64,000 nucleotides of DNA, taken from Pyramidobacter sp. YE332 (GTDB taxonomy: Bacteria > Synergistota > Synergistia > Synergistales > Dethiosulfovibrionaceae). Where the stretch lies: positions 2,542,001 to 2,606,000 of the forward strand of contig NZ_CP133038.1 of the NCBI RefSeq assembly GCF_033060595.1, written 5' to 3'. Positions 6,151-63,950 of the stretch are shown here, piece after piece. The notes beneath the pieces were generated by a model that searched no databases, was not told where the DNA came from, and saw only the letters and a program-made list of their open reading frames with translations. Position 1 is the first letter of the stretch. Each line of letters starts with the position of its first letter. The position numbers were made by a program, and so were the translations under genes.

Positions 6151-6268
6151 CCGTGCTGGCCATAATAGGGGCATGTACGATGGAGAAAGGTCAGTTATTC
6201 TCATACCAGTAATCAGAGCGAGCATGGATTCTAATACTGATTCTTAATAGAATAGTTTAACGACAGTC

Positions 6269-6391
6269 CTGAAGCACTCCAAGGGAGTCCAGTCGCTCGG
6301 GCCTGTCTCGCCGGCTGCGCAGTCCGTGCAATTCGCTTTGTGGATCTCCCTCGGAGCGCTATTGCTATTCAGCGTTTCAATTAAGAAATAG
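6269..6391 (+). pseudogene. Orphan 3' end of a membrane-protein gene
   Basis: An open stretch of 40 codons without a start ends in a hydrophobic helix (VQFALWISLGALLLFSVSIKK) and a stop. It looks like the C-terminus of a permease whose body was lost beside the ISL3 relic. I cannot name the family. Confidence 0.3.
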
Positions 6392-6410
6392 TTATTAACA
6401 CCAATTCAGA

Positions 6411-7502: not shown

Positions 7503-7531
7503 AAAAAAGCTTCCTCTCGCATAAAATAGAC

Positions 7532-12320: not shown

Positions 12321-12535
12321 CGGAACGAAATGGTATCCTTCGTCTTTAAAGACAGTTCTGCAGTTTGGAGACAGTCTCTTTATTCTGCGCCCCTGCCGGT
12401 CAAGAAGAATTTCAGAGCCGCCCATGCAGCTTCAGCGAGCTTTCAACTTCATCTTGCCGCCATTGTTGTTTTGTTGAAGGAGTACAAATCACATTGTTTT
12501 TTAAACAAGGCCCAGTATTATTGAGACAATTTTTG

Positions 12536-14140: not shown

Positions 14141-14247
14141 ATGTATTCCTCCATATTTTGTAATAAACCACGCGGGGCGGTCGTATGTTGAAAACGTTTT
14201 CTGTTTCACGCTGAATTTCGATCGTAAATTTCAATCGCCTGGCTCCG

Positions 14248-43599: not shown

Positions 43600-43858
43600 A
43601 TTTTTTGCCCCCTCTTTCAACTGTTAAAAGATAAATTACGAGCCACGTGGCAATTTTAATCTATTTTAAATTAACGGTCAAGAAGGGCGACATAAACATT
43701 TTTACGATAAAATATTTCTGAAATTCTTCAAGGTAAATGCAACGCAACATCCGGTACCCCGTTGCATTAAATCTGAATTAAAAGGAGCTTGCATTTAGTC
43801 TGAATTGATGAAAGAACTTTCTTACGAGACAACAGATCTCGGAAAGGAGTTCATCATC

Positions 43859-45088
43859 ATGAACAAACATTTGACTCTGGCTGAAAGAAAAGCCATTGAA
43901 AGCGCCCTCAACCGGCGAGAATCTCTCAGAAGTATTGCCTCAACAGTTCTGAAGTCGCCGAGTACGATCTCCAGAGAGATCAGAAAACATGCAGAGACTG
44001 TCTTCAAAGGCTGTTATGGCCGGACAGCAAACTGCTGCCTTCACCGGTATGACTGCTCCGTTACTTCCCTTTGTAACACCTCTCCGAAATGCCGTTCACT
44101 GTGTTTCCGGTGCTCAAGATGTAATACGATGTGTCCTGACTTTAAGGAGGAGGTCTGCCCGCAGCTTTCGGTTCCTCCGTATGTCTGTAACGGCTGCCCC
44201 AACCGTCACCGCTGCACTTTAAAAAAACGGATCTATTCTGCTAAATCTGCAAATGACTCTTACGAGAAAACTTTGCATGAGGCTCGTGAAGGCTTCAATA
44301 TCTCCGATGCCGAGCTTGCAGATATTGATTCTTTTTTCTCTCCTCTCATCAAACAGGGGCAGTCTCTCTATCATATTATCCGTAATAATCGAGATACTGT
44401 TCCCTGTTCTGAAAGTACCGCCAGACGGCTCCTGCTTTCGGGTATTTTAGAGGCACGGAAAATAGACTTGCCCCGAGCTGTCCGTTTTAAGAAGAGAAAG
44501 GGAAAAAGAAATAACATGAAGGTGGATAAAAAATGTCGTGAAGGCCGTACCTACAATGATTTTCTCTCTTTTTCGGAGAAACATCCGGACATGCTTATTA
44601 CCGAAATCGACAGTGTCGTTGGCACCGCAGGAGGAAAAGTTCTTCTGACTGTCATCTTAAGAAACTGCAACTTTATGCTGGCTTTTTTGAGAGATAAAAA
44701 TACTGCTCAATCTGTTGAGCAGATTTTTACAATGCTCTTCACTCTTCTGGGCAGGAAACGCTATAAGTCCATGTTTCAGGTCCTTCTTGCTGACAACGGT
44801 ACAGAGTTTTCCAATCCGACGGCTATCGAAAAAGGTCCGGACGGAGAAAGAAAATCATATATGTTCTATTGCAATCCACAAGCACCGCAGGAAAAAACGA
44901 AGGTTGAAAATAATCATACTCTCATTCGAAGGATCCTTCCCAAGGGAACAACTTTCGACAATTTATCCCAAACTGATATCAACCTGATGATGTCTCATAT
45001 AAACTCATTGAAATTCTTCAAGGTAAATGCAACCCAACATCCGGTACCCCGTTGCATTAAATCTGAATTAAAAGGAGCTTGCATTTAG
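43859..45088 (+). pseudogene. IS30-family transposase, 3'-truncated copy
   Basis: Identical to the full copy at 46031 except for a few substitutions (for example Ala for Val near codon 58) up to the codons for MSHINS. There the frame runs into the left-end sequence of the next IS copy and ends in an unrelated tail (LKFFKVNATQHPVPRCIKSE). The lost part is the last 40 or so residues of the transposase, so the protein is probably inactive. The HTH (LTLAERKAIESALNRRESLR) and DDE residues remain. AAGGAG precedes the ATG. Confidence 0.85.
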
Positions 45089-45967: not shown

Positions 45968-46030
45968 TAGTCTGAATTGATGAAAGAACTTTCTTACGAG
46001 ACAACAGATCTCGGAAAGGAGTTCATCATC

Positions 46031-47323
46031 ATGAACAAACATTTGACTCTGGCTGAAAGAAAAGCCATTGAAAGCGCCCTCAACCGGCGAGAATCTCTCA
46101 GAAGTATTGCCTCAACGGTTCTGAAGTCGCCGAGTACGATCTCCAGAGAGATCAGAAAACATGCAGAGACTGTCTTCAAAGGCTGTTATGGCCGGACAGT
46201 AAACTGCTGCCTTCACCGGTATGACTGCTCCGTTACTTCCCTTTGTAACACCTCTCCGAAATGCCGTTCACTGTGTTTCCGGTGCTCAAGATGTAATACG
46301 ATGTGTCCTGACTTTAAGGAGGAGGTCTGCCCGCAGCTTTCGGTTCCTCCGTATGTCTGTAACGGCTGCCCCAACCGTCACCGCTGCACTTTAAAAAAAC
46401 GGATCTATTCTGCTAAATCTGCAAATGACTCTTACGAGAAAACTTTGCATGAGGCTCGTGAAGGCTTCAATATCTCCGATGCCGAGCTTGCAGATATTGA
46501 TTCTTTTTTCTCTCCTCTCATCAAACAGGGGCAGTCTCTCTATCATATTATCCGTAATAATCGAGATACTGTTCCCTGTTCTGAAAGTACCGCCAGACGG
46601 CTCCTGCTTTCGGGTATTTTAGAGGCACGGAAAATAGACTTGCCCCGAGCTGTCCGTTTTAAGAAGAGAAAGGGAAAAAGAAATAACATGAAGGTGGATA
46701 AAAAATGTCGTGAAGGCCGTACCTACAATGATTTTCTCTCTTTTTCGGAGAAACATCCGGACATGCTTATTACCGAAATCGACAGTGTCGTTGGCACCAC
46801 AGGAGGAAAAGTTCTTCTGACTGTCATCTTAAGAAACTGCAACTTTATGCTGGCTTTTTTGAGAGATAAAAATACTGCTCAATCTGTTGAGCAGATTTTT
46901 ACAATGCTCTTCACTCTTCTGGGCAGGAAACGCTATAAGTCCATGTTTCAGGTCCTTCTTGCTGACAACGGTACAGAGTTTTCCAATCCGACGGCTATCG
47001 AAAAAGGTCCGGACGGAGAAAGAAAATCATATATGTTCTATTGCAATCCACAAGCACCGCAGGAAAAAACGAAGGTTGAAAATAATCATACTCTCATTCG
47101 AAGGATCCTTCCCAAGGGAACAACTTTCGACAATTTATCCCAAACTGATATCAACCTGATGATGTCTCATATAAACTCATACGGGAGGAAAAAATTTAAC
47201 GGAAAATCTCCTGCAGAGATCTTTATCAACCTGTATGGCGAGGATGTATTGCATTTACTCGGACTCGAACTTATTCCGCCACAGGATATCTGTTTAAAGC
47301 GGACTCTTCTCGCCGGTAAATAA
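46031..47323 (+). CDS. IS30-family transposase, full-length copy
   Basis: A 430-residue transposase. An N-terminal HTH (LTLAERKAIESALN, then LKSPSTISREIRKH) is followed by a cysteine-rich zinc-binding stretch (CSRCNTMCPDF, CNGCPNRHRC) and a DDE core: TEIDSVVG, LADNGTEFSN and NNHTLIRRILPKGTTFD. The C-terminus YGRKKFNGKSPAEIF is normal. AAGGAG lies nine bases before the ATG. It is the likely source of activity for the truncated copy. Confidence 0.92.
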   Translation: MNKHLTLAERKAIESALNRRESLRSIASTVLKSPSTISREIRKHAETVFKGCYGRTVNCCLHRYDCSVTSLCNTSPKCRSLCFRCSRCNTMCPDFKEEVCPQLSVPPYVCNGCPNRHRCTLKKRIYSAKSANDSYEKTLHEAREGFNISDAELADIDSFFSPLIKQGQSLYHIIRNNRDTVPCSESTARRLLLSGILEARKIDLPRAVRFKKRKGKRNNMKVDKKCREGRTYNDFLSFSEKHPDMLITEIDSVVGTTGGKVLLTVILRNCNFMLAFLRDKNTAQSVEQIFTMLFTLLGRKRYKSMFQVLLADNGTEFSNPTAIEKGPDGERKSYMFYCNPQAPQEKTKVENNHTLIRRILPKGTTFDNLSQTDINLMMSHINSYGRKKFNGKSPAEIFINLYGEDVLHLLGLELIPPQDICLKRTLLAGK

Positions 47324-50363: not shown

Positions 50364-52166
50364 CCTAGATTCCCGTAACCCCACACTAGAAAAAGACAAC
50401 CAGCCCAGCTGAATCCCGCTAAGACACTGAGTTTTGGCGGGTTAATTCTTGTCTTTTTCATCGTTACGTATTATCATACGTAACTAGATAAGGAGGCAGG
50501 AAGATGGCTTTGGTGAAGCAGCTAGATAAAAGAAGCGGGATCACGTATGTTTACGAATCGGTATCGTATTGGGACAAGGAGAAGAAGCAAGGGCGCTCCA
50601 AGCGAAGGTTGGTAGGCAGATTAGATCTCCAAACGGGTGAAGTCGTAGCGACAGATGGTCGTGGGAAACGTCGCAGCACACAGGCAGCGGATCCTCCTGC
50701 CAAGCAAGGGGCGGTTCCCGTGTCGACACCCGATCGACTCTTCTTCGGAGCGACCTACCTGTTTGACCAGATCGGGGAAGTGACCGGAGTGACGGAAGAT
50801 CTCAAGGCCTGCTTCCCCGGGCAGTACAAGCAACTCCTCTCCATCGCCTACTACCTTATCCTGGAAGACCAGAATCCGCTCTTTCGTTTTAAGAAGTGGG
50901 GCAAGCTCCACCGCCATCCTTACGGCAAGGATATCCCTTCCCAGCGGAGTTCTGAATTATTCCAGTCCATAACGGAAGAAGGCAAGATGAAGTTCTTCCG
51001 TCTCCAAGGGAAAAGGCGTGTGGAAAAAGAGTACTGGGCTTATGACAGCACCTCTATTTCCAGCTATTCCGAAGCCCTGAGAGAAGTCCGGTACGGGAAC
51101 AACAAGGACGGTGAGAAACTGCCGCAGGTGAATCTGGCTCTACTGTTTGGCGAAAAGTCCGGCTTGCCCTTCTATTACCGGAAACTGGCCGGAAACATTC
51201 CGGATGTGAAGACCATTCGCGAGCTGCTGAGGGAACTGGACATTCTTGGTTACTCCAAGGTGAAGCTCGTCATGGACAGGGGGTATTACAGTGCGGACAA
51301 CATTAATGCCTTATACAAAGCGCATGTGAAATTTTTGTGTGGAATCTCAACCGCTCTGAGCTTTGCCAAAGATTTCATCCGTGAGCTTGGATCCCAAAAG
51401 GACCGTTACGCCGCCTACAACAGCAGGCTGGAACTGTATGTGTTCAGCAAGACGATCGCCTGGGACTACGAACAGGAAAGGCCGTATAAGGGAGATGTTC
51501 TGAGCGGAAAGAGAAGAATGTATCTGCACCTGTACTTCAATCCCGACAAACTGGCGGATGACGGCAAAGCTTTGAACCGCAGGTTGGACAGCCTCAAGGA
51601 GGAACTGCTGAGCGGTCACCGAAAACCGGAACACGAAAAGGACTACCGAAAATATTTCAAGGTGAAAGAAACTCCCAAACGCGGCATTGCGCTTGACTAT
51701 AAGCAAGAAGCGATGGACGCGGCCTGCGAGCGCTACGGTTTCTTCGCCCTCATTAGCAACGAAGTCAAAGATCCCGTAACAGCCATCCAGCTTTACCGGA
51801 TGCGCGACGTGGTCGAAAAGGCATTCTGGAACGTGAAAGAACGATTGAATCTGCGAAGAACCCTGGTTTCTTCCGAAAGAGCGCTTGAAGGCAAGTTTTT
51901 TGTCGAGTTTCTCTCACTTATTTACCTTTCCTACCTCAAGAAAAAAATGGAAGAAAACGGACTATATGCAGATTACACCATGCACGAGTTACTCGACGAA
52001 CTGGATGTCATTGAGTGCTTTACAGAGCCCGGGAAGGCCCTATACCAGGAGAAGTGCTCATGAAACAGGAAGAGATCTACAGAGCGATGGGCGTGACACC
52101 TCTCTTGGCTAAACCAGAAAGTTGAGTTAACGATGAACTCCTAGGGTGGTGTTTCGGGAATCCAGG
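50364..52166 (+). mobile_element. IS1634-family insertion sequence (1803 bp) with TTAAAA target duplication
   Basis: Imperfect inverted ends (CCTAGATTCCCG at the left, CGGGAATCCAGG at the right, similarity extending about 26 bases). TTAAAA is present on both sides (50358-50363 and 52167-52172). It lies inside the antitoxin reading frame. Confidence 0.9.
50504..52063 (+). CDS. IS1634-family transposase
   Basis: A 519-residue transposase with DDE core residues in AYDSTSISSYS, KLVMDRGYYSADNINAL and MRDVVEKAFWNVKERLNLRR. AAGGAGGC lies before the ATG. At the 3' end the stop overlaps an ATG whose frame gives KQEEIYRAMGVTPLL, which is the usual C-terminus of the family. The last 20 or so residues have therefore been shifted out of frame. 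The element may still be active, as this tail is short. Confidence 0.9.
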   Translation: MALVKQLDKRSGITYVYESVSYWDKEKKQGRSKRRLVGRLDLQTGEVVATDGRGKRRSTQAADPPAKQGAVPVSTPDRLFFGATYLFDQIGEVTGVTEDLKACFPGQYKQLLSIAYYLILEDQNPLFRFKKWGKLHRHPYGKDIPSQRSSELFQSITEEGKMKFFRLQGKRRVEKEYWAYDSTSISSYSEALREVRYGNNKDGEKLPQVNLALLFGEKSGLPFYYRKLAGNIPDVKTIRELLRELDILGYSKVKLVMDRGYYSADNINALYKAHVKFLCGISTALSFAKDFIRELGSQKDRYAAYNSRLELYVFSKTIAWDYEQERPYKGDVLSGKRRMYLHLYFNPDKLADDGKALNRRLDSLKEELLSGHRKPEHEKDYRKYFKVKETPKRGIALDYKQEAMDAACERYGFFALISNEVKDPVTAIQLYRMRDVVEKAFWNVKERLNLRRTLVSSERALEGKFFVEFLSLIYLSYLKKKMEENGLYADYTMHELLDELDVIECFTEPGKALYQEKCS

Positions 52167-52706: not shown

Positions 52707-52978
52707 AGCCCATCTCCGCGTGAGCGGAGGTTTGTACATCAAGGACAAACGCGGAAGAAAACGGCAAGGTCCATCTCCGCGTGAGCGGAGTTTTGCACGG
52801 GAAGCCTCCGAAAACAACATCAACTGGAGGTCCATCTCCGCATGAGCGGAGGTTTGCCAGAGCGGCCTGCGCTTTTTCAAGCTCGCTCAGGTCCATCTCC
52901 GCATGAGCGGAGGTTTGCAGAGCCCCTGCCGCTGCAGATAATCGATCAAAGGTCCATCTCCGCATGAGCGGAGGTTTG
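52707..52978 (-). CRISPR. CRISPR array: 5 repeats of 28 nt, 4 spacers of 33 nt (type I-E-style repeat)
   Basis: Repeats start at 52707, 52768, 52829, 52890 and 52951, an exact 61-base period. On the minus strand each reads CAAACCTCCGCTCATGCGGA then GATGGACC, a hairpin repeat with the GATGGACC-like 3' end seen in type I-E arrays. The first and second repeats (low coordinates) have variants, so they mark the old trailer end, and the leader should lie at 52979 upward. Spacers differ from each other. The array is transcribed in the same direction as the neighbouring cmr operon. Confidence 0.95.
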
Positions 52979-53504: not shown

Positions 53505-54608
53505 TTATGGTTCTTCGATGAGCTTCAGGGTGTAAATCTTTTTTTCGAGATCACACGCGATGACTTCAGCCCGAAAAGTTTCCCCCTCACGAGCGTGGGG
53601 AATTCCCGGAGAAAAGCTGACGTTCTGCGCGCTGTCTTCGTCGACAAGTTTATATCGAGGCTTAATCTTCCCTTTGACTTTACGGGAACCGCAGCACATT
53701 GCTTCAACGATGTCGCCCTCGATATACCTCATGCCGCCCTTTCGGGCCATTTCCCGCAGAGTCTCCCGGCTTGCTTCCTGCGCTGACTGCTGACGGTTCA
53801 GCCGTCCGTATCCGGAACTGCGCTTCGCGCCAACGCCGCGTTCGCCCAAGACATGCTCGAACAGTTTCTCGATTCCCGCCAGAAGGTCTTTTTTCCTGCC
53901 GGCGTCGGGTTCTTCGCAGTCGCAACCGACCAGAAACGTACCTCTGACGGAAACGAAGCTGACGGGAACGGGGTCGTCAAAATCGCTGGGGACAGCAGGC
54001 TCTTGCTTGCTGTAATAGCCGCTGTGATGGCACGTGACGACGTCGTCGTGAAGACAGTTTTCAAGGCTCTCGGGGGTGATCCAGGCGTCGTGAAAGCGCA
54101 CGTATCCCTTCGCCGACGCTCCGTCCGCGGCGGCGCTTCCGAAGATAACTTTGCTGTTTTCGAGCCACGCGGCGGCGGCCTCCCCGCCGGGCGCAGCGTT
54201 TTTCAGCGCCTCGGCGCAGTAAGCGGCAAGAACGCCCTTCAGAGAGCTGGCGGGAATGATGGGAACGCCATACGTGTGTTCCAGGGAAAGTCCGTTTTCC
54301 AACACGTTTTTTCCGCCCAGGCCGACGGCCAGAGGCGCCGTCGTGCGGAACTCGAGCAGCATAGCTCCAGCGGCCTTAAAGGCGTTTTCACGCCGCCGAT
54401 AGGACGTTTCATAAACGTCTTTCGCACATTTCAGCGCCTTTTTCATCTGCTCGTAAAGCCTCGTACGAGCCATGATCGCGCTATCCCCGCCGCGGGCATC
54501 TTTGCTCGCGTCTTCTATTTCTGCCAGAAAACGCTCCATGACCAGCGAAGCATTTGAAGCGCCGTCATCCTTGCACAAGCAATCAAGCGCTTTTCGGCAA
54601 CTGTTCAT
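53505..54608 (-). CDS. cmr6: Type III-B RAMP protein Cmr6 with C-terminal extension
   Basis: A 367-residue protein. The RAMP part is clear: LEFRTTAPLAVGLGG, YGVPIIPASSLKGVLAAYCAE, VRFHDAWITP and the glycine-rich GVGAKRSSGYGRL. Cmr6 caps the backbone of the Cmr complex. After about residue 295 come 70 further residues (YIEGDIVEAMCCGSRKVKG, then ACDLEKKIYTLKLIEE) resembling an OB/S1-like beta domain. The start overlaps the cmr5 stop by ATGA. It is the last gene of the operon. Confidence 0.9.
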   Translation of the reverse strand: MNSCRKALDCLCKDDGASNASLVMERFLAEIEDASKDARGGDSAIMARTRLYEQMKKALKCAKDVYETSYRRRENAFKAAGAMLLEFRTTAPLAVGLGGKNVLENGLSLEHTYGVPIIPASSLKGVLAAYCAEALKNAAPGGEAAAAWLENSKVIFGSAAADGASAKGYVRFHDAWITPESLENCLHDDVVTCHHSGYYSKQEPAVPSDFDDPVPVSFVSVRGTFLVGCDCEEPDAGRKKDLLAGIEKLFEHVLGERGVGAKRSSGYGRLNRQQSAQEASRETLREMARKGGMRYIEGDIVEAMCCGSRKVKGKIKPRYKLVDEDSAQNVSFSPGIPHAREGETFRAEVIACDLEKKIYTLKLIEEP

Positions 54609-54988
54609 CGGGGGCCTCCGTTTTCCGCGCCGTCAAGGCTTTCGCAGCAGCGTTTGATCCAGGCGGCAGCTTCCAATGCCCGGCGGCTCAGACGCATGTA
54701 CTCCTTCAAATCGGCTTCTCTGGCGCTCGCGACCAAGTCGTCGGAACATCCCGTTTCGACGTTTTGCAAAACTTCCTGCAAACCTTCAAGGTACTTGGTC
54801 TGTCCCTTCGCGTCGGCAAACGTCGCCGCCTGGACGAGGCCGCAGCTGTGGATCAAGCACGGGAACGAAAGGGCAAAGCGTTTATAGTCTTCATATTTCC
54901 CGCCTGCGCAAACTTTTTTCACGGCGGTAAAAGCGGCCCGCGCCATTTTTTGCCCGTTGGTCAGCATAACTTCATCTTTTTCACTCAT
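54605..54988 (-). CDS. cmr5: Type III-B small subunit Cmr5
   Basis: A 127-residue helical protein with NGQKMARAAFTAVKKVC, YKRFALSFPCLIHSCGLVQA and KYLEGLQEVL, the recognisable Cmr5 pattern. It lines the target-RNA channel. The start (MSEKDE) overlaps the cmr4 end by eight bases. Confidence 0.92.
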   Translation of the reverse strand: MSEKDEVMLTNGQKMARAAFTAVKKVCAGGKYEDYKRFALSFPCLIHSCGLVQAATFADAKGQTKYLEGLQEVLQNVETGCSDDLVASAREADLKEYMRLSRRALEAAAWIKRCCESLDGAENGGPR

Positions 54989-55901
54989 GAAGCTCACCGG
55001 CCTTTTCGATGTCCTTGAACAGGCAGCGGACGTGCCCCTTGCCGGTAGTCGCTTTGCCGCCCAGCTGCAGGGAGAGCTCGGAACCGCAGAATTGCTTTAA
55101 AAGCTCCCCGCTCGTGGGCGTTTCGTCCTCCGGCGCGCCGTAAATTTTATCGCACCAGACCCGGCCGACAAGGAGCGTCTCGACCGGCAGCGTTTCCTCA
55201 TACCACAGCGCCCCGTCGGCAGCCGCGCCGGTTTCCTGGTCGACCTTGATGTGCGGCGTCACTTCCGTCCCGGCTTCGCACAGGAAGGTAAAGATGTCGT
55301 CGTGGACGACGGCGAAGCGCGCTTTAAAAGTTTTTTTCCAGCCTTCGTCATCGCCGAACAGTGTCTGGGCGATTTTTTCCGCCCAGTTTTCGGCGTTTTC
55401 GTTAAAAGCCGAGGCAAGGTCAAGCTCTTCAAGATACATCTTCCCGCCCGGCTCTTTGGTAAGCGCCGTGTCTTGAGCCGTAAAAGCCTGAAATTCGTCA
55501 GGAAGAATCACGGGCGGCGCGGAGCGCTCTTTGACGTCGCGGGCACAGCGCTCCAGGCAGAAGGGCGACGTTATCCAGGCGAAGGTGCCGTAAAAGCTGC
55601 GCACGGGCAGGCAGAGGATATGCGCGTCAGTGAAGACGAGCGAACCGGAATTGCTGCAATCATCGCCCGTCGCGCCGAAAGCGATCCTGGCATCGCCTTC
55701 TCGTTTTTCCGAATTGTTGGAAACGTTGTGATGGGCGGCAATCACGCCTTTGACGCTGCTGCCGGGGATATAGGGCCAGTTGGTCACCTTCTCGCGCACG
55801 ACCGGCAGATCGATATAGCCAAGTCCGCGTCCCGCGCCGATATGAATCGGGCTGAGCGCATGAAGCCAATAACTTTTTTCAACGAAAGTTTTTTCTCCCA
55901 T
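54981..55901 (-). CDS. cmr4: Type III-B backbone RNase Cmr4 (Cas7 group)
   Basis: A 306-residue RAMP protein. The N-terminus HALSPIHIGAGRGLGYIDLP carries Asp31, matching the catalytic Asp that cuts target RNA every six bases. Further motifs are PYIPGSSVKGVIAAHH, SGSLVFTDAHILCLPVRS and the C-terminal GGKATTGKGHVRC. AGGGGAGAGG precedes the ATG, 15 bases after cmr3. Confidence 0.94.
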   Translation of the reverse strand: MGEKTFVEKSYWLHALSPIHIGAGRGLGYIDLPVVREKVTNWPYIPGSSVKGVIAAHHNVSNNSEKREGDARIAFGATGDDCSNSGSLVFTDAHILCLPVRSFYGTFAWITSPFCLERCARDVKERSAPPVILPDEFQAFTAQDTALTKEPGGKMYLEELDLASAFNENAENWAEKIAQTLFGDDEGWKKTFKARFAVVHDDIFTFLCEAGTEVTPHIKVDQETGAAADGALWYEETLPVETLLVGRVWCDKIYGAPEDETPTSGELLKQFCGSELSLQLGGKATTGKGHVRCLFKDIEKAGELHE

Positions 55902-55915
55902 GTTCGTCCTCTCCC

Positions 55916-57061
55916 CTATTTATGTTCTCGCCAGCCGCCCCACAACGCCAGGCCGAATCCGTCGAGCCGATCCTGCGGCTCGTCGCAGACGGAACGGAGC
56001 CAGACCCGATCAGGGACAAAGTTCCCCGCAACAACTTCGAAAAAATAGACGCTGCCGGCCGGGACCATGCGCCGCATGGGCTTGGGGCCGGTTCTGCCCT
56101 TTTCGTGACACCAGCCGGAAAGAGGCTGCCAGCGACCGACAACGGCGGATACCAGCCGCACCCGCACATCCGTACCAGGCAAAATTCCTTCGCGAGGCGG
56201 GGTCTTATCCCCGCCGATCCAGCCGGGATACCAGCCGTTCGCAAACAGCGCCGGCGTCGCCAAGATCATGCGGATCCGGTCACCACCGCGCAGACAGTCC
56301 AGGCAGGGGGGGCAGCGCCATGCCGCGTCGTCATCTGTCTGCCGAAAATCGGCAAGACGACGCATCCCGCCGACGGGAGCGGTAAAATCTCCAAGCAAGC
56401 GGGCCGCTCGTTCGTCGATCTCCAGTGCCGCCGCAATGGAGGCGTATGTTCTCTCCGCCGTCCGGTGCACGAAATCGAGTCCCGTGGAAGAAAAGATCTT
56501 CCCGTCGCCGGCAGCGCCCGTTTCCGGCGCGATGCTGACGTGAGTACGTTCGTCCTTGGGAATGTCGTCGAGCCAGTCGTCGCCGAAATCAACGCGCCCG
56601 TCGCGCCCGTAGCGCTCCGTCAGTCCTCTTTTTCCCTCGCACAGCCAGCGGGCGTAAAGATCCAGCGACCAGTATCCGCCCCGTTTTTGGGGCTTGAAGT
56701 TTTCCTCGGTATCGGGCGACGGCAGCAAAAGCCCTTCAAGCGGCATGTCCGCAGACTGCTCGTCTTCTAACTCCGCAGGAAGGAGCTGGTACGGCTTGCC
56801 TTCCTGAGTCTGGACGAAATCCAGAGGCCGGGGAAAATAAAATTTGCCACCGATCTCGGGAAACGGACCGCGCACAGCGATCGAGCGCAGATATGACGGA
56901 GTCTCCCCGGTCAGCTTCCAGAGCGCGGTGCGCACGGAACCGGCGGCCACCGTCTGCGTCAGCCAGTCAAGGGAACGGACGCGCGCGCCGCCGCCTCCGG
57001 AGCCGAAGGTGCGCGCATCGCGAGCAATCAGCGGCTCGATGGGAATCATCCGGTATTTCAT
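55916..57061 (-). CDS. cmr3: Type III-B protein Cmr3 (Cas5 group)
   Basis: A 381-residue RAMP protein with MIPIEPLIARDARTFGSGGG (family start), GSVRTALWKL, RGPFPEIGGKFYFPRPLDF, the central VSIAPETGAAGDGKIFSSTG, and PVGGMRRLADF. It binds the crRNA 5' tag region with Cas10. The start overlaps the Cas10 C-terminal frame by ATGA. The start at 57061 is chosen over a longer frame because of that overlap and the family alignment. Confidence 0.93.
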   Translation of the reverse strand: MKYRMIPIEPLIARDARTFGSGGGGARVRSLDWLTQTVAAGSVRTALWKLTGETPSYLRSIAVRGPFPEIGGKFYFPRPLDFVQTQEGKPYQLLPAELEDEQSADMPLEGLLLPSPDTEENFKPQKRGGYWSLDLYARWLCEGKRGLTERYGRDGRVDFGDDWLDDIPKDERTHVSIAPETGAAGDGKIFSSTGLDFVHRTAERTYASIAAALEIDERAARLLGDFTAPVGGMRRLADFRQTDDDAAWRCPPCLDCLRGGDRIRMILATPALFANGWYPGWIGGDKTPPREGILPGTDVRVRLVSAVVGRWQPLSGWCHEKGRTGPKPMRRMVPAGSVYFFEVVAGNFVPDRVWLRSVCDEPQDRLDGFGLALWGGWREHK

Positions 57062-57675
57062 CGTTCGGCCTCCTTCTGCGGAGTCGGCTTCCGCGTATAG
57101 CGGCGGGCAAACGCAATCCACTGGCCGACGACAAGCTCATCGGCGAGTTCTTTGACCCCCGCGCCATCCCCGAGCTTGCGTCCGATGTAGCGGGCGATTT
57201 CCGCCTCGTTTTCGGCGGAAAGGTCCGTGTCCTTGCGCGCGAAAATGCGCATGACGTCGGCTTTCACAGCTTCGGCCAGCGACTCTCTGTCGTCCCAGTT
57301 CTCGTAAAAGCGGGCCGTCTCGAGCAGTTCGTGCGGGAACTTATCGGGAATCTCGCCTCCGGCAAAGCGGTCGCCCCACCAGTCAAGCCGTTCGGCCAGA
57401 GAACGCTGAACCAAAGGCTTCTCTCGTCCGTCGTTTTCGCTGGCAGCGGGCCACTGCTCGCGCACCGTTACGGCAATGTTGCCGCGAGCGCGGACGGCAA
57501 CGGCCAGTCCGTTCCGATCCCTGCCGACGGCGGCTTCGCCGTGGAGCCCGTTCTTGGCGTCGCTCTCGGCGCGGCGGGCAAACTTGAGCAGCAACTCCAG
57601 ATCTTCCAGAGCATGAGCGATGGAAACGCCGATGGAAAGCGTCGGCCGGCAGCCGAAAGGAACGTCGGAACTCAT
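57058..57675 (-). CDS. cmr2: Cas10/Cmr2, C-terminal fragment
   Basis: A 205-residue frame that continues Cas10 after the GGDD-bearing fragment. It opens with PFGCRPTLSIGVSIAHALEDLELLL, the strand and helix that follow GGDD in Palm2, and then the helical D4 domain (LDWWGDRFAGGEIPDKF, ARFYENW, ARYIGRKLG). It starts with an ATG that overlaps the previous stop as ATGA. Either ribosomes reinitiate here and two chains assemble, or one base has been lost or gained and the gene is broken. Confidence 0.88.
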   Translation of the reverse strand: MSSDVPFGCRPTLSIGVSIAHALEDLELLLKFARRAESDAKNGLHGEAAVGRDRNGLAVAVRARGNIAVTVREQWPAASENDGREKPLVQRSLAERLDWWGDRFAGGEIPDKFPHELLETARFYENWDDRESLAEAVKADVMRIFARKDTDLSAENEAEIARYIGRKLGDGAGVKELADELVVGQWIAFARRYTRKPTPQKEAER

Positions 57676-58934
57676 GATATGCCGAATTCGGACCGCAGTT
57701 CCCTGGCGCAGTCAAGAGCGGTATCCAACGGCAGGAAGGCAAGCACGTCATCTCCTCCGGTGTAAACGGTAACGCCGTAATGTCCCTTGATGACGTTTCT
57801 GGCCCGACAGGCAAAATCGGCAAGCTTTTTTGAAAAGCAACGGTGCGATTCGGCGTCTTTCATGTTGTCCAGAATCGCTCCCATGCGGTCTCCGTCGGCG
57901 CTGAGCACGGCAAGATACGGCTCGCAGGGGCGGTCGCAGGGCTTCAGTTTCGACAGCACGCCGACAATTTTACGGCACTGCTCCGCAACTCTCTCAGCTA
58001 CGTCCTTCCCTTCGTTTTCGGCATCCTTTTTCATGCCGGCATAGCGTCCGCGCATCAGCGCTTCGCCGCCGTAAGGGAATTTCTCGTAAAAATCCGCCCC
58101 CACCGCGGAGAGAACGCCGCACAAATTCAGTTCCTCGCATGCCTCGAGGATCGTCTTGCGGTCCGCTTCTTTCATCTTGCCAGCCGCGGCAAACACGCCG
58201 CGCACCCAGGGATCGACGGCAACGCGGGAAACAGGAGGAAAATTCTTCGCGTCGGAGATGCGCTTGATCACGCCGATGGCGTCGAGCGCCTCGTTCCGCT
58301 TGAGGCGCAGCGTGCGGGTCATGGCGCGCTGCTGCGCGTCGGAAAGACTCTTGCCATCTTTGAACACGCTCTCGCGCAGTCCGTCCAGCGAGCTTTTGGC
58401 CACGCGATCCGCGCACGGGGAAGGGCTAAAGTCACGGATGTTCTTGCGCGCGGCCAGAAGTTTGGCCGCGGTTCTGCGTGCTTCGTCGTACGGACGTCCG
58501 TCGAGAGGCGTCCAGACGCAGTAAAATTCGATAATATCGTCCAGCTGCCCGTTCCAGCGCTCCATGACGACGAGATCTCCGACTTTTCCGCCCTCTTTGC
58601 CAAGCGGCGTGTCGAGCGCTTCGCGCCCGTACTCAGCCAGCCGCGCCTCCGCGGCCTTCTTTGCCTCGTTTTTGATGCGCCCCAGTTCCTCGGCGTCGGC
58701 GGCAGTCACTTTGGCAAGGATCACGTTGGCGATGCCGTCCGACAAGGACGAGTCTTGCACAGCGTCGGGAAAAATCAGAGATCCGCCCAGATCCCTCACG
58801 CAGCAGGCCACGGCCTTGCTCAGCTCGGAAAGCATCCGCGACCCCATCCAGAGGTCGTGCGTGCGGCGCGCGGCGGCGATAAAATCCTGCACGGGGCCGA
58901 TGGCGATCTGCAGTAAATAGTTCCGTTCGCTCAC
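57672..58934 (-). CDS. cmr2: Cas10/Cmr2, N-terminal fragment with GGDD cyclase motif, no HD domain
   Basis: A 420-residue frame that begins directly with Palm1 (LLQIAIGPVQDFIAAARRTH, DLWMGSRMLSELSKAV). The N-terminal HD nuclease domain of many Cas10 proteins is absent. Palm2 has SADGDRMG (345-352) and YTGGDDVLAF (GGDD 393-396), the catalytic motif for cyclic oligoadenylate synthesis. It stops 24 residues later (SEFGIS). GTG start, overlapping the cmr1 stop by GTGA. With the next frame it makes up a Cas10 of about 620 residues. Confidence 0.92.
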   Translation of the reverse strand: MSERNYLLQIAIGPVQDFIAAARRTHDLWMGSRMLSELSKAVACCVRDLGGSLIFPDAVQDSSLSDGIANVILAKVTAADAEELGRIKNEAKKAAEARLAEYGREALDTPLGKEGGKVGDLVVMERWNGQLDDIIEFYCVWTPLDGRPYDEARRTAAKLLAARKNIRDFSPSPCADRVAKSSLDGLRESVFKDGKSLSDAQQRAMTRTLRLKRNEALDAIGVIKRISDAKNFPPVSRVAVDPWVRGVFAAAGKMKEADRKTILEACEELNLCGVLSAVGADFYEKFPYGGEALMRGRYAGMKKDAENEGKDVAERVAEQCRKIVGVLSKLKPCDRPCEPYLAVLSADGDRMGAILDNMKDAESHRCFSKKLADFACRARNVIKGHYGVTVYTGGDDVLAFLPLDTALDCARELRSEFGIS

Positions 58935-60154
58935 TTCCCCGTCACCTCCTTAAAACCTTTTTCTCTTAAATAGGCGCGGAACGCCTCCAACGCGTTGCCG
59001 GTGCTGGAACGATTTTCCATCGGAGAACCCTTGTAATTCGCGAACTTTGCCCCCTGGTAGTCGCTGCATTCTTTATCCAGTTTATTCAGTCTTCCCCCAA
59101 GTTTGTTTCCGCTCAACCTCAGACCACAGGAAAGATCCGGTTCGGGCAGAAAGACAGCCATGCTCAGAACACGGCCATCCTTCAAGCGCAGCGGACGCAG
59201 AATCACCGGGCTGCTCATGCGCTGCGCACCGACAGGGAGCAGCTGCTGGCACGACTTCGGATCGCCCGACGTCTTAAATCTAAAGCCGATCGGCATGCCG
59301 AAGACCGCGCGGGGGAAACCGTACGGATGATCCGGTGGATAAACAGCCTCATGTCTGGGATCGCGCTGGCCCGTCAGCTTACGGATCGTGTCCGCCTCGG
59401 GCCAGCGCGAGCGGCCGCGTGTCCCGTTTCGCCCTACGTCTTTTCCCTGCCTAAACTCGCGCAAACACCCGACAGCCTCCTTCCAAGCGACAATGCTTTG
59501 CTTGGAGTCGCACTCTTTCGTCCACACGCGCAGTCCGCACGAGACGGCCAAAGCGCGCGCTTCTTCTTCGTTCTCAAAAGCCAGTTCAGGGCAGAAAACC
59601 GCCCCGCAGCCACGCCGCGTGCGCGCGCCGACGCCGCCGAAATTGGCCCAGGCGCGCAGACTGCGTTCCAACTGTTCCTTGAGCTCGGAGCACAGCTGCG
59701 GCTCGCAGACGACGCCCAGATCAAAATTAAACTCGGGAAGGACTCCTGATTTATCCCTAAACGGGAAGAGGGCGTACTGAGCGTCCTTCACCGGTTTCAA
59801 TACGACAGACTGGCCTGCCCCCTCTTTTATGAACACTCCGACGCGGCTGGTATGCTGCAAAGCGGCTTTGTCCCCGTCGGATGACGCCGCGAACACTCCG
59901 CCCCAGAGCGCGCATTCCTTTTCTTTCAACGCGTTGCCCCGCAGGCCGCGAACGCCGTGCAGCAACCGCCACCAAAAGCGCAGCTGCCCCCGTATGGAAG
60001 GCGCCCGCACGGGAAATTCTCTGCCAACCTCTCCGGCCTTGGCGCCGCCGCCGAACATGGGCGTGATGACGCTGCACGCGTAAACCTTGCATTCCCGCGC
60101 GGGCAAGGCCCCCAATCGAAGCGCTCCGCCAAGTTTTTCCGCCATACTCCTCAC
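58931..60154 (-). CDS. cmr1: Type III-B RAMP protein Cmr1
   Basis: A 407-residue RAMP protein. The family hallmark VRAPSIRGQLRFWWRLL is intact, preceded by CSVITPMFGGGA, and a GGVGARTRRGCGAV stretch follows. Cmr1 sits at the 3' end of the crRNA. GTG at 60154 has GGAGGAGG seven bases upstream; an in-frame ATG (MAEK) lies three codons later. It is the first gene of the operon cmr1-cas10-cmr3-cmr4-cmr5-cmr6, all joined by overlaps of a few bases or gaps under 15. Confidence 0.92.
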   Translation of the reverse strand: MRSMAEKLGGALRLGALPARECKVYACSVITPMFGGGAKAGEVGREFPVRAPSIRGQLRFWWRLLHGVRGLRGNALKEKECALWGGVFAASSDGDKAALQHTSRVGVFIKEGAGQSVVLKPVKDAQYALFPFRDKSGVLPEFNFDLGVVCEPQLCSELKEQLERSLRAWANFGGVGARTRRGCGAVFCPELAFENEEEARALAVSCGLRVWTKECDSKQSIVAWKEAVGCLREFRQGKDVGRNGTRGRSRWPEADTIRKLTGQRDPRHEAVYPPDHPYGFPRAVFGMPIGFRFKTSGDPKSCQQLLPVGAQRMSSPVILRPLRLKDGRVLSMAVFLPEPDLSCGLRLSGNKLGGRLNKLDKECSDYQGAKFANYKGSPMENRSSTGNALEAFRAYLREKGFKEVTGK

Positions 60155-60414
60155 TCTGCCGCCTCCTCCCAAACAGACAAAACAACCGCGCACACCGCGG
60201 ACGGCGCGCTGCGCCCGACACCTTTCGACCTTGTCCTGCCGTATTTCATTTCAGCAAGTCAAATATACTCTAACATATTAAAAATTTTTGAGCCCACCGC
60301 GTCCATGCTCCCGCAAATACCATGCGCATTCCGCTTGATCCCCGGAGGCGCCACGCCGAATCCGCGCCTCGACGCGGCGTTGCCTGCGCGCCTGCCGTCT
60401 GGGGCGCTCATCGA
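60155..60414 (-). promoter_or_regulatory. Promoter region of the cmr operon with motif shared with the CARF-RelE gene
   Basis: On the minus strand AATATGTTAGAGTATATT lies at about 60263-60280, roughly 110 bases before cmr1. Nearly the same string, in the same orientation to its gene, occurs before the CARF-RelE gene. The rest (60290-60410) is GC-rich with no gene. Confidence 0.5.
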
Positions 60415-62616
60415 TCAAGAGCCCGTTCGCTCGACAACGTGAGCCTTGAACCGCAGCACGTCTTTCAGCAGTTTCTCGACGCTTCGATATTCTTTTCGAA
60501 TGTCTTTTTCGATTTCTGGCAGCGTGCCGTTTTCAGCGTTTCCATCCAGGCCGTAAATGTCGATTCTCACGCAGTCGCCTGAATCCCACACCGGCAGCAC
60601 AAAGCCCACCTGACGGTGTTTGTCGAAATGAAGCGCCTGTTCGCGCTTGAACGCGTAACGGTTCGCCAGCGACAGCGCCAGAAAGCGCCGCAACGACTGA
60701 GGATCACGCTGCACGGCCAGCCAGCCTTCCGTTTTTTTCATACCTCCCAGCGTCCGGAAAACGCCTTTGTAAATTTCTTTGCACAGGTATTTCATTCTGT
60801 CCACGTCGCTTTTTTCCTGCGTCAATTTCTGCACATTGACTTTCAGACCCTTAGGCAGCGCATCCGCGTACCCTTCAAGCTGGCGGCCGACAAAATTCGC
60901 TTCGTTTTCCGTGCGCCGATGCCGCGCTTCCATGTACTCCTGACTGACCGTGCGGTCGGCCTGCACGTCGCAGGCGTCGATAATACGCATCAGCGCCGTC
61001 AGCCGCAGAAAACGCTGAATTATCGCATCCCGCGTTTCCCCGGTCCGGACATGTCGAAAATCCTCCACGCGCAAAATCTTGTCAAGCCTCTCTTCAAGCG
61101 GTTCCAGCGTCTGTTTAAAGTCGTCCGGACACAGCGTTTCGCCAACCGGTTCAACGACCTCATTCGCCTGCGCTGTGCCGTCGGCGCAGCACAGTTTCGT
61201 GTAATGACGGTGATATTCGGCTACCAGCGGGACATAACGGGCCAGAAACGCCTGCTTTTCCCCGTTCTCGTCAAGCGGTCTTCCAGGCGCTCCGCCCGGT
61301 CTGAAATAGCGATCGGGCTCCTCGCGCAGCAGCGACGCCGTCAGCAGATGGTGCATCTCGCGCACCGCCGAGGGAAACAGGCCGAGCGGAAAATCTTTGT
61401 CGCATCCGCGCTCCGAGGCCCCCGCGTAGGTCAGAGCCGTGTGGCCGATGTCATGCAGGTAAATCGACGCGATCAGCAGCGCCAACATCTCGGGATGCTC
61501 GTCGTCGAAACCAGCTTTTTTCAGAGGTTCTTCCGCGCAGCGAAACAGATTGACGGTGAACTCCATCAGACGTTTGGAATGCCGGCGGCTGTGCTCGACC
61601 GTTTCCGGGATCTGGTCGCCCAGCCACAGGTGTTCCCACTTGCAGACCAAAAGATTTTCGAGATATTCCGCCCATTTCCTGCCTTCGCCGCCGCAGCGCC
61701 GCAGCCGCTCGAACAGAGCCTGCCCCGTGCCGAACGGCCTTTTGCGCATCGCATCATAACTTTTAATTAGGGCCCCCGCCATTTTCCCAGAATCCCGCAC
61801 CCACTGCGGCAAAGAGGGCGCCTGCATCATCTCCGGGTTTCTGTCGAGCGCTCTGAGCATATTGATCTCCTCGTCCAGCGCGGCGTAAGCATATCCCAGC
61901 GGCATGCTCATCAGCTCATACGCCTCGGGAGAATCTTCAAACGTATACAGACAAGGCAGCCCATGAAGCTGCGCGTATGCGGCGGCAAACGCGGAAATCG
62001 CCTTGTAGCCGCCTGTGGAACAGATCACGACCTCTTCCCCGTTCTCCTTCTTCTCAAGACATTCGTCAAATTCACGATAGAGATCGACAACAGACTGGTT
62101 GAAGCTCTCCTTGTCCCGAACGTCGATGGCGACCGGACGTATACCTCCCTTTTCGCCCTTTTTCCCCTCTTCGCAGACCAGCTTCTTGATTCTTCCTTTA
62201 AAGCAGAGTCTGACCAGTCTTTCGAGAAATACCCGAACACAGAGCGCCGTCAGTTTCGACACCGCCGTTTCCGAGGGAAGCAGAAGGACGTGCAGCCGCT
62301 CGAACGCAGCTTCGCCATCCCTCTCAAGGATGCGCCGCAGCCAGCGGTACAGCGTCTGCACTTCCGCCGAAGGGAAACGAAAATCCCGTTTGTCCAGCGC
62401 CTTTTTTTCCTCGCCAGACAACGATGAAGAATCCAGTATCTTCATCAAAAGCTCCGTCTTGGGAGACGCCGAACCTCCGATAAGTTCCCTGACGCCTTTC
62501 TCAGAAGCGTCGCAAAGGCGTTTCGCCTCCTGCTCCTTTTTTTCCGCACTCAGATTCTTGTCCAGCCAGAATGCAGCGGACATTCCCACCGTGCAAATCA
62601 CCGTAACGCGCTTCAT
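60415..62616 (-). CDS. CARF-HD fusion protein, candidate cyclic-oligoadenylate effector
   Basis: A 733-residue protein. Residues 1-240 form a CARF-like Rossmann domain: VTVICTVGMSAAF at the start and EEVVICSTGGYKAISAFAAA (CSTGG 199-203), the usual ligand-binding loop of the APE2256/TIGR02619-type CARF group. After a helical linker, residues 335-560 hold an HD phosphohydrolase-like domain: His342 (EHSRRH), His388-Asp389 (YLHDIGH), His422/423 (REMHHLL), His469/471 (AEYHRHY) and Asp547/550/554 (RIIDACDVQADR). All expected metal ligands are present. The C-terminal 150 residues are unassigned. It is upstream of cmr1 on the same strand. Confidence 0.82.
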   Translation of the reverse strand: MKRVTVICTVGMSAAFWLDKNLSAEKKEQEAKRLCDASEKGVRELIGGSASPKTELLMKILDSSSLSGEEKKALDKRDFRFPSAEVQTLYRWLRRILERDGEAAFERLHVLLLPSETAVSKLTALCVRVFLERLVRLCFKGRIKKLVCEEGKKGEKGGIRPVAIDVRDKESFNQSVVDLYREFDECLEKKENGEEVVICSTGGYKAISAFAAAYAQLHGLPCLYTFEDSPEAYELMSMPLGYAYAALDEEINMLRALDRNPEMMQAPSLPQWVRDSGKMAGALIKSYDAMRKRPFGTGQALFERLRRCGGEGRKWAEYLENLLVCKWEHLWLGDQIPETVEHSRRHSKRLMEFTVNLFRCAEEPLKKAGFDDEHPEMLALLIASIYLHDIGHTALTYAGASERGCDKDFPLGLFPSAVREMHHLLTASLLREEPDRYFRPGGAPGRPLDENGEKQAFLARYVPLVAEYHRHYTKLCCADGTAQANEVVEPVGETLCPDDFKQTLEPLEERLDKILRVEDFRHVRTGETRDAIIQRFLRLTALMRIIDACDVQADRTVSQEYMEARHRRTENEANFVGRQLEGYADALPKGLKVNVQKLTQEKSDVDRMKYLCKEIYKGVFRTLGGMKKTEGWLAVQRDPQSLRRFLALSLANRYAFKREQALHFDKHRQVGFVLPVWDSGDCVRIDIYGLDGNAENGTLPEIEKDIRKEYRSVEKLLKDVLRFKAHVVERTGS

Positions 62617-62831
62617 ACGCTGCCCTTCTTCCTCGACGAGCCAGCCGTCCGACGACTGCCCGTTTCATGCCGTCGAAAACTTTTACAGTTACGCCGCTTC
62701 AACAGACAAAAGGTTGTTTTTTCGTGATTTTTCAATCTTAAGCAGTTATACCTAATATATGTTAGTATAATACTATGCGTCCAAACTTTTCTCAAGAAAA
62801 AATTTTCATCGCGTTCGAAAGGATCGTGCTC
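62617..62831 (+). promoter_or_regulatory. Divergent promoter region between CARF-HD and CARF-RelE genes
   Basis: AT-rich. TATATGTTAGTATAATACT (62756-62774) includes a strong TATAAT and matches the cmr operon motif (TATGTTAG then TATA). It lies about 60 bases before the CARF-RelE ATG. A weak inverted repeat TATAC...GTATA frames it. Confidence 0.5.
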
Positions 62832-63950
62832 ATGAGAACAATTTATGTGGTAACCTGCGGCACAAGCATTCTTACTAACGGGGCGTCGGAGACCGATCGG
62901 ATTTTTCTGCGCGAAAACGCCAACAAGCTTGAACAGGACTATTCCCCGGAGGAGCGCGACCGGCTTGAAAATATCGCCGCTTCGCGGCGCGAGACTCTGC
63001 TCGGGGAAAGCGACGAAGCCCGGATATGCCGCTGTTCCGCCGAACTGAACGGCTTCCTCAACTACCGCCGCACCAGTCCCGCAGCGCAGAACAGCGCCGG
63101 AGACATGGCGTACTTCGTCTGTACCGACACGTTTCAGGGCAAACTGACCGCTCGAATCCTCGCCGACTGGAGCAGAAAACGCGGAATGGCAGCCGACGTC
63201 GTAAAAGTCGAGGACCTGAATACCGCTTCCGTCGAATCGTTTCACCGCGGCGTCAACAACCTCATCGAATGGTGCCGCACCACGCTGTCTGCAGCCCGGG
63301 AGAGCGGCTCCCGCATCGTTTTCAACCTGATCGGCGGTTTCAAAACGCTGCAGGGATACATGCAGACGCTGGGAATGATCTATGCTGACGAGATCTTCTA
63401 CATTTTTGAATCAGGGCACGAGATCATCACCATCCCCCGTCTGCCGCTCGACATCTCCTCCGCGGCCCAAAAGGCGATCCGCACCCACCTTGCCGTCGTA
63501 CGCCGCATGAATTACCGCGATCTGCCCGCCGCAGAGTGCGCCGGCCTGCCGGAAACCATGCTGACTGTCATGGACGGACAATGTATTCTGTCGGTATGGG
63601 GCAAAGTGATCTTCGACGAGGTCAAGAAAGAACTGTACCAAGAGAAACTGCAGCCGCCAATGATCGATTCGTTCGAGTTCTCCCCCGGGGCGAAAAATGA
63701 CGCCGAAAAGCTCGATCCGCAGCAAAGAAGAAGGCTGAATGACGCCATCGACAACTTCGGCGCCTGTCTGGAAACGGGACAAAATCTGCAAAGACTCGAC
63801 TTCCGCGCACTGAAAGGGAATCCCAAGCCTCCGTCCACGCACGAATTCAACATATGGAGCACGCAAAACGGCTGGCGCGCCTTCTGTCATTACGAACAAG
63901 ACCGTCGAAAATGGGTCATCGACCGCTTCGCCGTCGGCATCGGCCACTGA
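62832..63950 (+). CDS. CARF-wHTH-RelE protein, Cami1-like ribosome-dependent mRNA interferase
   Basis: A 372-residue protein. Residues 1-200 are a CARF domain: IYVVTCGTSILTNGA at the start, FVCTDTFQGKLTARIL in the middle and IVFNLIGGFKTLQGYMQT (GGFKT 168-172). Residues about 205-275 look like a winged helix (AQKAIRTHLAVVRRMNY, LSVWGKVIFDEVKKEL). Residues 278-372 are RelE-like: AEKLDPQQRRRLNDAIDNF, RALKGNPKPPSTHEFN, GWRAFCHYE and WVIDRFAVGIGH. This order is that of Cami1, which cA4 activates to cut A-site mRNA. AAAGGA precedes the ATG at 62832. It is divergent from the CARF-HD gene. Confidence 0.85.
   Translation: MRTIYVVTCGTSILTNGASETDRIFLRENANKLEQDYSPEERDRLENIAASRRETLLGESDEARICRCSAELNGFLNYRRTSPAAQNSAGDMAYFVCTDTFQGKLTARILADWSRKRGMAADVVKVEDLNTASVESFHRGVNNLIEWCRTTLSAARESGSRIVFNLIGGFKTLQGYMQTLGMIYADEIFYIFESGHEIITIPRLPLDISSAAQKAIRTHLAVVRRMNYRDLPAAECAGLPETMLTVMDGQCILSVWGKVIFDEVKKELYQEKLQPPMIDSFEFSPGAKNDAEKLDPQQRRRLNDAIDNFGACLETGQNLQRLDFRALKGNPKPPSTHEFNIWSTQNGWRAFCHYEQDRRKWVIDRFAVGIGH

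Follow-up and report, generated by a model that had tools for sequence, protein, structure and literature searches.

CARF proteins that carry an HD domain form a class that is already on record. The CARF-HD fusion was noted in 2013 in a passage that counts HD among the RNases fused to CARF (PMC3710099), and a passage of the 2025 classification lists 'DNases of the PD-(D/E)xK and HD families' among the effectors of cyclic oligoadenylate (cOA) (PMC12669027). Cami1, whose CARF fold is nearest to that of the protein described here, is presented as dimeric and activated by cyclic tetraadenylate (cA4) (PMC11229360). We have analyzed a 64,000-nucleotide stretch of the genome of Pyramidobacter sp. YE332, a member of Synergistota (NZ_CP133038.1, positions 2,542,001 to 2,606,000; hereafter the window, whose own numbering is used), in which one gene encodes a fusion of CARF and HD domains. 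The HD domain has a complete ligand set in its sequence, and the gene lies beside a type III-B cmr operon. The original prediction for this gene, made from the DNA letters alone, had called such fusions rare and poorly characterized. The latter part agrees with the literature matches listed (titles and abstracts), which include no experiment on CARF-HD, with an earlier mention in the 2020 CARF classification or in supplements being possible; the fusion, however, was noted in 2013 and has PADLOC models of its own. The architecture is already known and catalogued, because the protein matches PADLOC model PDLC01933 (CARF7--CARF_HD) over its full length, with residues 1-731 aligned to profile positions 1-669 of 670 (1123 bits), and the window protein joins this known class.

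We propose, with a probability of roughly 0.46, that the CARF-HD protein is an ancillary effector of the type III-B system, acting as a cA4-gated nucleotide phosphohydrolase. Upon detection of foreign RNA by the Cmr complex, Cas10 would make cOA, most likely cA4. Binding of cA4 by the CARF half, probably across a dimer, would then release the HD half. The latter is a putative metal-dependent phosphohydrolase whose closest folds are those of GppA/exopolyphosphatase and the cyclic-nucleotide phosphodiesterases (PDEs). The released HD half would hydrolyze a small nucleotide, be it a deoxynucleoside triphosphate (dNTP), a nucleoside triphosphate (NTP) or a nucleotide polyphosphate, and growth or phage replication would stall. 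The ligand, the gating through a dimer, the substrate class and the physiological outcome are what we infer here; cA4 is preferred as the ligand because the nearest CARF, that of Cami1, answers to it (PMC11229360).

A chance open reading frame (ORF) is ruled out by the full PADLOC match, by a homologue with 93% identity in genome G003, and by a nonsynonymous rate (dN) of 0.034 against a synonymous rate (dS) of 0.098 between these two copies, indicating purifying selection. An identical protein (100%) is encoded in Pyramidobacter sp. C12-8. A phage or plasmid origin was rejected as well, since no match was found in 50,697 phage records, 72,556 plasmid records or PHROGs, and none of the 23 pattern matches in viral contigs was a relative. 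Pfam detects Cas_APE2256 (PF09651, CARF) at residues 83-232 (54 bits, cut-off 24.8) and HD-CE (PF24391) at residues 337-474 (36.7 bits, cut-off 27); the NCBIfam CRISPR-associated domain TIGR02619 scores 34.1 bits, below its curated cut-off of 37.45. Structures were modeled with AlphaFold2 from 19 sequences for the full-length protein (mean pLDDT 81.4, pTM 0.73) and from 18 sequences for the HD half alone (pLDDT 86.4, pTM 0.89). Conservation was read from an alignment of the window protein with 18 sequences from Synergistota, Thermotogota and Caldiserica, some of them partial and some mutually close.

The first domain had been predicted to be a CARF sensor with a CSTGG loop, and both the Pfam match and the model bear this out. 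The loop, CSTGG(YK), spans residues 199-205. Residues 2-292 of the model fold as CARF, with Z 16.8 over 236 residues at 3.5 Å for Cami1 (PDB 8phb) and Z 16.1 over 232 residues at 4.3 Å for the ring nuclease Sis0811 (7pq3), and the CARF profile matches Cami1 at 7e-14. The Ser and Lys of the Crn1-type ring-nuclease CARF site are present and invariant as S13 (16/16 aligned sequences) and K205 (17/17). We read them as the counterparts of S12 and K169 of Sis0811, both mutated in PDB entry 7pqa, and S12 also in 7pq6, according to the entry titles. The cA4-bound Cami1 entry 8phj has an alanine where apo Cami1 has the serine matching S13, which suggests that this serine may have been removed to keep the cA4 ligand intact. 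Because the Ser/Lys pair of the Sis0811 ring-nuclease structures is kept, the CARF half may slowly degrade its own activator.

The HD half carries the full His/His-Asp/His/His/Asp set that had been predicted, as H346, H388-D389, H422, H469 and D550. Residues H342, H346, H388, D389, H392, R419, H422, H469 and R470 are invariant in all 19 aligned sequences, and D547, D550, Q552, R555, R565, E572, K657 and Q660 in all 18 that reach them; by our reading D550, not D547, is the Asp ligand. In the AlphaFold2 model the candidate ligands lie on consecutive helices, ordered as is usual for HD domains. The nearest fold to residues 313-733 is the HD half of GppA/exopolyphosphatase (PPX). Residues 313-726 of the full-length model align with GppA (6pbz) with Z 13.8 over 187 residues at 3.8 Å, and the HD half modeled alone gives Z 13.5 over 186 residues at 3.6 Å. 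The exopolyphosphatases follow at Z 12.3-12.9, with one at 9.9, and the class I PDEs at Z of about 10; it should be mentioned that this model is mostly helical and that Z under about 13 can reflect a common arrangement. The extra C-terminus of 150 residues pointed out in the original prediction does exist, though apparently not as a domain of its own. In the model it continues the helical bundle and ends in a strand-strand-helix-strand unit, and we count it as part of the HD half because the GppA/PPX match runs through it; a separate unfamiliar domain is not favored. The conserved R419, R470, R555, R565, K657, Q335, Q552 and Q660 would suit a phosphate-rich small ligand. Three functions had been suggested for the HD domain. 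A nucleotide phosphohydrolase is preferred because of the GppA/PPX fold and the conserved basic residues, only mildly so over a nuclease, and the CARF half by itself could already plausibly end the signal.

Several points weigh against a nucleotide phosphohydrolase. The matches that bear on the substrate class are weak and local, covering 64-123 positions of the HD profile. The best solved sequence is 2o6i (E 0.0057, 64 positions, with the EHSR..HS and HDxGH motifs aligned), which we take to be the dNTPase EF1143, and PDE4D comes next at E 0.007; an E of 0.006 is near noise, since unrelated beta-lactamases follow at 0.011-0.015 in the same search. For a helical fold, Z values near 13 are weak, one exopolyphosphatase reaches only 9.9, and Foldseek with the HD half returned nothing at E <= 0.001 in PDB or viral models. 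A CYTH domain as support for nucleotide chemistry had to be dropped. The Thermotogota members scoring best with PDLC01929 (CARF7--CARF_CYTH_HD) have about 200 extra N-terminal residues, after which the match to this model begins; Pfam finds no CYTH domain in any of the three (L042, L046, L047), leaving the CYTH in the model's name unconfirmed here. Published lists, in the passages at hand, file HD effectors as DNases or RNases (PMC12669027, PMC3710099). Finally, cOA may not be made in this strain, because its cas10 is split into two frames, as described below.

The main and strong rival, which we nonetheless consider unlikely, is a cOA-gated HD nuclease cutting DNA or RNA, as the HD domains of Cas3 and of many Cas10 proteins do. 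The lists just cited support it, although their label is an annotation, and Cas10 of this locus is without an HD of its own, so that a separate HD nuclease would complement it. Among the 18 HD sequences, one touches Pfam Cas3_HD (E 0.13), whereas HD-CE is touched by all 18 at E <= 1 and the general HD model by 11. The folds listed are those of GppA/PPX and PDEs, with which a nuclease remains compatible; no Cas3, Cas10-HD or SAMHD1-type chain is among the 50 fold matches listed, which excludes none of them. A further alternative takes the HD half for a second-messenger phosphodiesterase that hydrolyzes cOA itself and terminates the signal. Cyclic-nucleotide PDEs do form the second fold group, and the H342xxxH346 and HDxxH392 arrangement resembles what we take to be the motif of class I PDEs. 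However, the CARF half keeps the ring-nuclease Ser/Lys already, which would seem to make a second terminator redundant, and attaching CARF to an enzyme that erases the signal would presumably achieve only self-limitation. We regard this alternative as very improbable.

Among the Thermotogota relatives, L042 ends in a second CARF (residues 869-1049). As whole proteins L042 and L046 score under the HD-CE cut-off, and L047 has no match to it at E <= 0.01. One Caldiserica contig, L044, has two different CARF-HD genes about 4 kb apart (6065-8218 and 12101-14188). HD relatives without CARF also stand alone (L023:8365-9744, L024:7646-9016, L025:1409-2791). In the stand-alone HD proteins P0009 and P0010 the metal ligands are kept, with Arg replacing H342 and Tyr replacing H392. 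Two conserved histidines are replaced in L023 and L024. The stand-alone HD gene of L023 adjoins glycogen-type genes and a DUF3089 gene.

The type III setting anticipated for the gene was found in the window, where CARF-HD is on the same strand as cmr1-cmr6 (Table 1). Downstream, after a gap of 221 bases, the order is cmr1, cas10, cmr3, cmr4, cmr5, cmr6 and then a short CRISPR array; the divergent CARF-RelE gene upstream is separated by 158 bases. Window cas10 is split into frames of 420 and 205 codons by a one-base deletion relative to G003, in which cas10 is one ORF and carries a 12-base insert elsewhere relative to the window. The GGDD motif is kept in Cas10 of the window and of seven other distinct loci (8/8, with row L148 left out as a repeat of L029). 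In the window and six Synergistota homologues, Cas10 begins at Cmr2_N (residues 4-7), and Pfam finds no HD family in them at E <= 0.01. With GGDD and no HD family in their Cas10, the Synergistota type III systems should therefore act via a second messenger. Cas10 of the Thermotogota locus L047 may retain an HD, because about 180 residues with an FHDP sequence precede Cmr2_N. Cas10 of G011 (L100:14328-15518) is short, at 397 residues, with Cmr2_N and palm close together.

The split cas10 raises the alternative that the locus is decaying in this strain and that CARF-HD is a silent leftover, which we judge rather doubtful. The identical split is present in the near-identical strain C12-8 (L028), and just five repeats of this type are left, no further copy being found in the assembly with <=2 mismatches. 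However, the CARF-HD and CARF-RelE genes are intact, with dN below dS against G003, and the cas10 pieces overlap as ATGA, the start of the second on the stop of the first, and could undergo coupled translation. An IS1634-family transposase is located at 50504-52063, about 0.6 kb ahead of the CRISPR array. Two 300-base near-duplicates (99%), at 43796-44095 and 45968-46267, form the starts of neighboring ORFs and are perhaps mobile elements.

In many Synergistota relatives the neighborhood of CARF-HD includes an RNA polymerase (RNAP). In seven loci of the first search for relatives (L014, L016-L021), CARF-HD is followed by a gene of 1437-1709 codons for a divergent single-chain RNAP, a beta-beta' fusion. 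Pfam Rpb2_6, Rpb1_2 and Rpb1_5 are found in 7/7 of the fused proteins scanned, and DFDGD is present in all 12 examined. The fused gene is followed by an ORF of 281-360 residues with an acidic N-terminal stretch, and then by an AAA+ gene with a sigma-54-activator-type ATPase domain. The small ORF product is without known relatives; it has no Pfam family over the cut-off in 10/10 cases, and was rejected as a sigma factor on this ground. No helix-turn-helix family was found at E <= 0.01 in the 10 AAA+ proteins scanned. Six of the 10 RNAP-bearing genomes examined have a sigma-54 DNA-binding match below E 0.1 and four (G045, G076, G100, G185) have none, though incomplete assemblies could hide one. 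An ordinary sigma-54 activator is not favored for the AAA+ protein because of these four genomes, and for the same reason it may work with the fused RNAP instead. With the earliest possible start taken for each, the CARF-HD and RNAP frames overlap by 4-17 bases in 6/10 loci, abut in two, and are 460-461 bases apart in two, with a small ORF inside. An ORF of 152-165 residues lies between CARF-HD and RNAP at L014:8960-9415 and L017:9435-9932, and neither Pfam nor PADLOC matches the one in L014.

A reverse search of 185 Synergistota genomes, with a threshold of E 1e-70 chosen by us, gave 14 with the fused RNAP. CARF-HD is directly upstream on the same strand in 13 of them, with the small ORF between in G008 and G009; in the 14th, G093, the RNAP is at the contig start. 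CARF-HD was counted in 20 of the 30 Synergistota genomes with a PDLC01933 match. Left out were eight weak matches (<=45.4 bits; other CARF proteins and short pieces) and G005 and G007, which have the stand-alone HD only; G012 (a contig without the CARF part) and G115 and G116 (broken) were kept. Thirteen of the 20 share the RNAP, compared to 1.5 expected (hypergeometric 3e-14, phylogeny not corrected; 2e-13 with G005 and G007 added). The 103 Thermotogota genomes include 20 with the RNAP and 19 with the CARF-HD type; the two coincide in 14, compared to 3.7 expected (5e-9). The AAA+ gene adjoins the RNAP in 14/14 Thermotogota RNAP loci examined, with a same-strand ORF between in 13. CARF-HD is next to the RNAP in L140 and L141, in the Synergistota arrangement; in L139 and L142 it lies past the AAA+ gene, and in the others it is elsewhere or absent. 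In the six Thermotogota RNAP loci of genomes without CARF-HD, a cas6 or CARF gene is nearby in three and none was found by the queries used in the other three. The CARF-HD and RNAP identities correlate with r 0.96 over 66 pairs from 12 loci, which shared genome descent could equally give.

The window genome is without the fused RNAP, its single rpoB-type match being canonical. At E 1e-70 there is no RNAP match in seven of the 20 Synergistota CARF-HD genomes (G000, G003, G138, G011, G012, G071, G116), where CARF-HD of G012 and G116 is on short contigs. CARF-HD is immediately ahead of cmr1 in G071, as in the window. The window lineage likely lost the fused RNAP, because in the tree the window pair groups with the RNAP-bearing L033, L029, L016 and L031 with support 0.998 (0.367 for the exact place among them). 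When compared to phage records as a possible phage enzyme, the fused RNAP has coverage <=58% and 25-32% identity among the 12 of 53 matches listed, some under rpoB/rpoC-type features. PHROG families of unknown function match at 140 and 116 bits, along with RNA polymerase beta families.

One possible reading of these observations makes CARF-HD a transcription protein that works, under cOA gating, with a single-chain RNAP dedicated to it, the Pyramidobacter copy being a remnant or re-used part. It is compatible with each of the chemical readings, phosphohydrolase, nuclease or terminator. The RNAP gene just 3' of CARF-HD in 13/14 Synergistota genomes, the overlapping or abutting frames and the excess of Thermotogota genomes with both genes argue for it. 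Yet the seven RNAP-negative Synergistota genomes include the window genus, six Thermotogota genomes have RNAP alone and five CARF-HD alone, and the RNAP is in neither Caldiserica genome; we consider this partnership tentative and unlikely. We hold in similar reserve, as possible but doubtful, the wider proposal of an undescribed type III CRISPR transcription module in which a private RNAP, a small acidic protein and an AAA+ protein stand beside a cOA-sensing HD hydrolase. Upon detection of phage RNA, CARF-HD with bound cOA would change the pool of nucleotides or the transcripts, and the private polymerase, perhaps served by the AAA+ protein, would keep immune genes or CRISPR RNAs transcribed while the host polymerase is hijacked or starved. 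In the window lineage the sensor-hydrolase would have been retained, whether the polymerase was lost or was never present. No title or abstract on a fused RNAP beside type III genes is among the literature matches listed, with an earlier mention in the 2020 CARF classification or in supplements being possible, and 'RNA polymerase' does not occur in the main-text part of the 2025 classification (PMC12669027).

Table 1. Features of the CARF-HD locus in the window and of related loci (L-numbers denote loci outside the window)
Feature	Position	Strand	Basis or remark
CARF-HD fusion gene	60415..62616	-	ATG start, 733 aa; PADLOC PDLC01933 match
CARF sensor domain, residues 1-292, GxS (S13) and TGGxK (K205) motifs	61741..62616	-	fold, profile, conservation
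HD domain and helical bundle, residues 313-668; proposed ligands H346, H388, D389, H422, H469, D550	60613..61680	-	HD-CE, conservation, GppA fold
C-terminal strand-strand-helix-strand unit, residues 670-733, continuous with HD half	60418..60609	-	secondary structure of the model
CARF-RelE gene (Cami1-type), divergent, 391 aa	62775..63950	+	PDLC01934 CARF7--CARF_RelE, 393.5 bits
cmr1	58931..60193	-	TIGR01894, 53.7 bits, cut-off 28.65
cas10/cmr2, N-terminal piece, starts at Cmr2_N, GGDD at residue 393	57672..58934	-	TIGR02577, 145.5 bits; Pfam
cas10/cmr2, C-terminal piece, different frame	57058..57675	-	PADLOC Cas10, 1.2e-10
cmr3	55916..57121	-	Pfam Cas_Cmr3, 191 bits
cmr4	54981..55901	-	TIGR02580, 217.5 bits
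cmr5	54605..54997	-	Pfam Cas_Cmr5, 73 bits
cmr6	53505..54608	-	TIGR01898, 110 bits
Short CRISPR array, five repeats, 61-base spacing	52708..52978	+	repeat search
Thermotogota CARF-HD members	L042:3333-6482, L046:1435-3486, L047:8891-11731		extra N-terminal ~200 residues without Pfam family
Fused RNAP, small ORF and AAA+ in a row, often near CARF-HD, cmr, cas6 or CARF genes	L014, L016-L021, L029, L031, L033, L035-L039, L043, L047, L133-L148		Synergistota, Thermotogota

The CARF-HD class is listed as a presumed nuclease, and the conserved residue set of the window protein gives clear targets for mutation. If the transcription module is real, a private single-chain RNAP with its catalytic motif intact, situated next to CARF-HD and other type III genes in both Synergistota and Thermotogota, would add a new type of accessory to CRISPR systems. 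To judge from the Pyramidobacter loci, CARF-HD can apparently function in its absence.

We have compared the window protein to the known systems. Relative to CARF7--CARF_HD (PDLC01933) the domain order is the same over the whole length and there is no difference in kind, except that the window copy is without the RNAP and AAA+ neighbors of many Synergistota relatives. The CARF and HD parts of CARF7--CARF_CYTH_HD (PDLC01929) align with the window protein at 222 bits. Cami1, a CARF-RelE ribosome-dependent RNase, is the nearest CARF fold and has the GxS and TGGxK motifs in common with it. The effector of Cami1 is RelE, whereas that of the window protein is HD; no RelE model of Pfam or NCBIfam matches the CARF-HD protein, and the Cami1-like one is its neighbor at 62775-63950. 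The ring-nuclease type CARF proteins Sis0811 and SSO1393 share the CARF fold (Z 14.9-16.1), but their chains are without an effector half. For residues 313-733 the C-terminal HD half of GppA/exopolyphosphatase is the best fold (Z 12.3-13.8 mostly, one 9.9) at 11-18% identity. In PPX/GppA this half is not known to be catalytic, whereas the window protein has a complete ligand set. The match to 2o6i and the class I PDEs is confined to short motifs (E 0.006-0.007) and scores close to unrelated sequences. With the HD nucleases of Cas3 and Cas10 the window protein has the HD superfamily and the CRISPR setting in common, and only one of the 18 HD sequences touches Cas3_HD.

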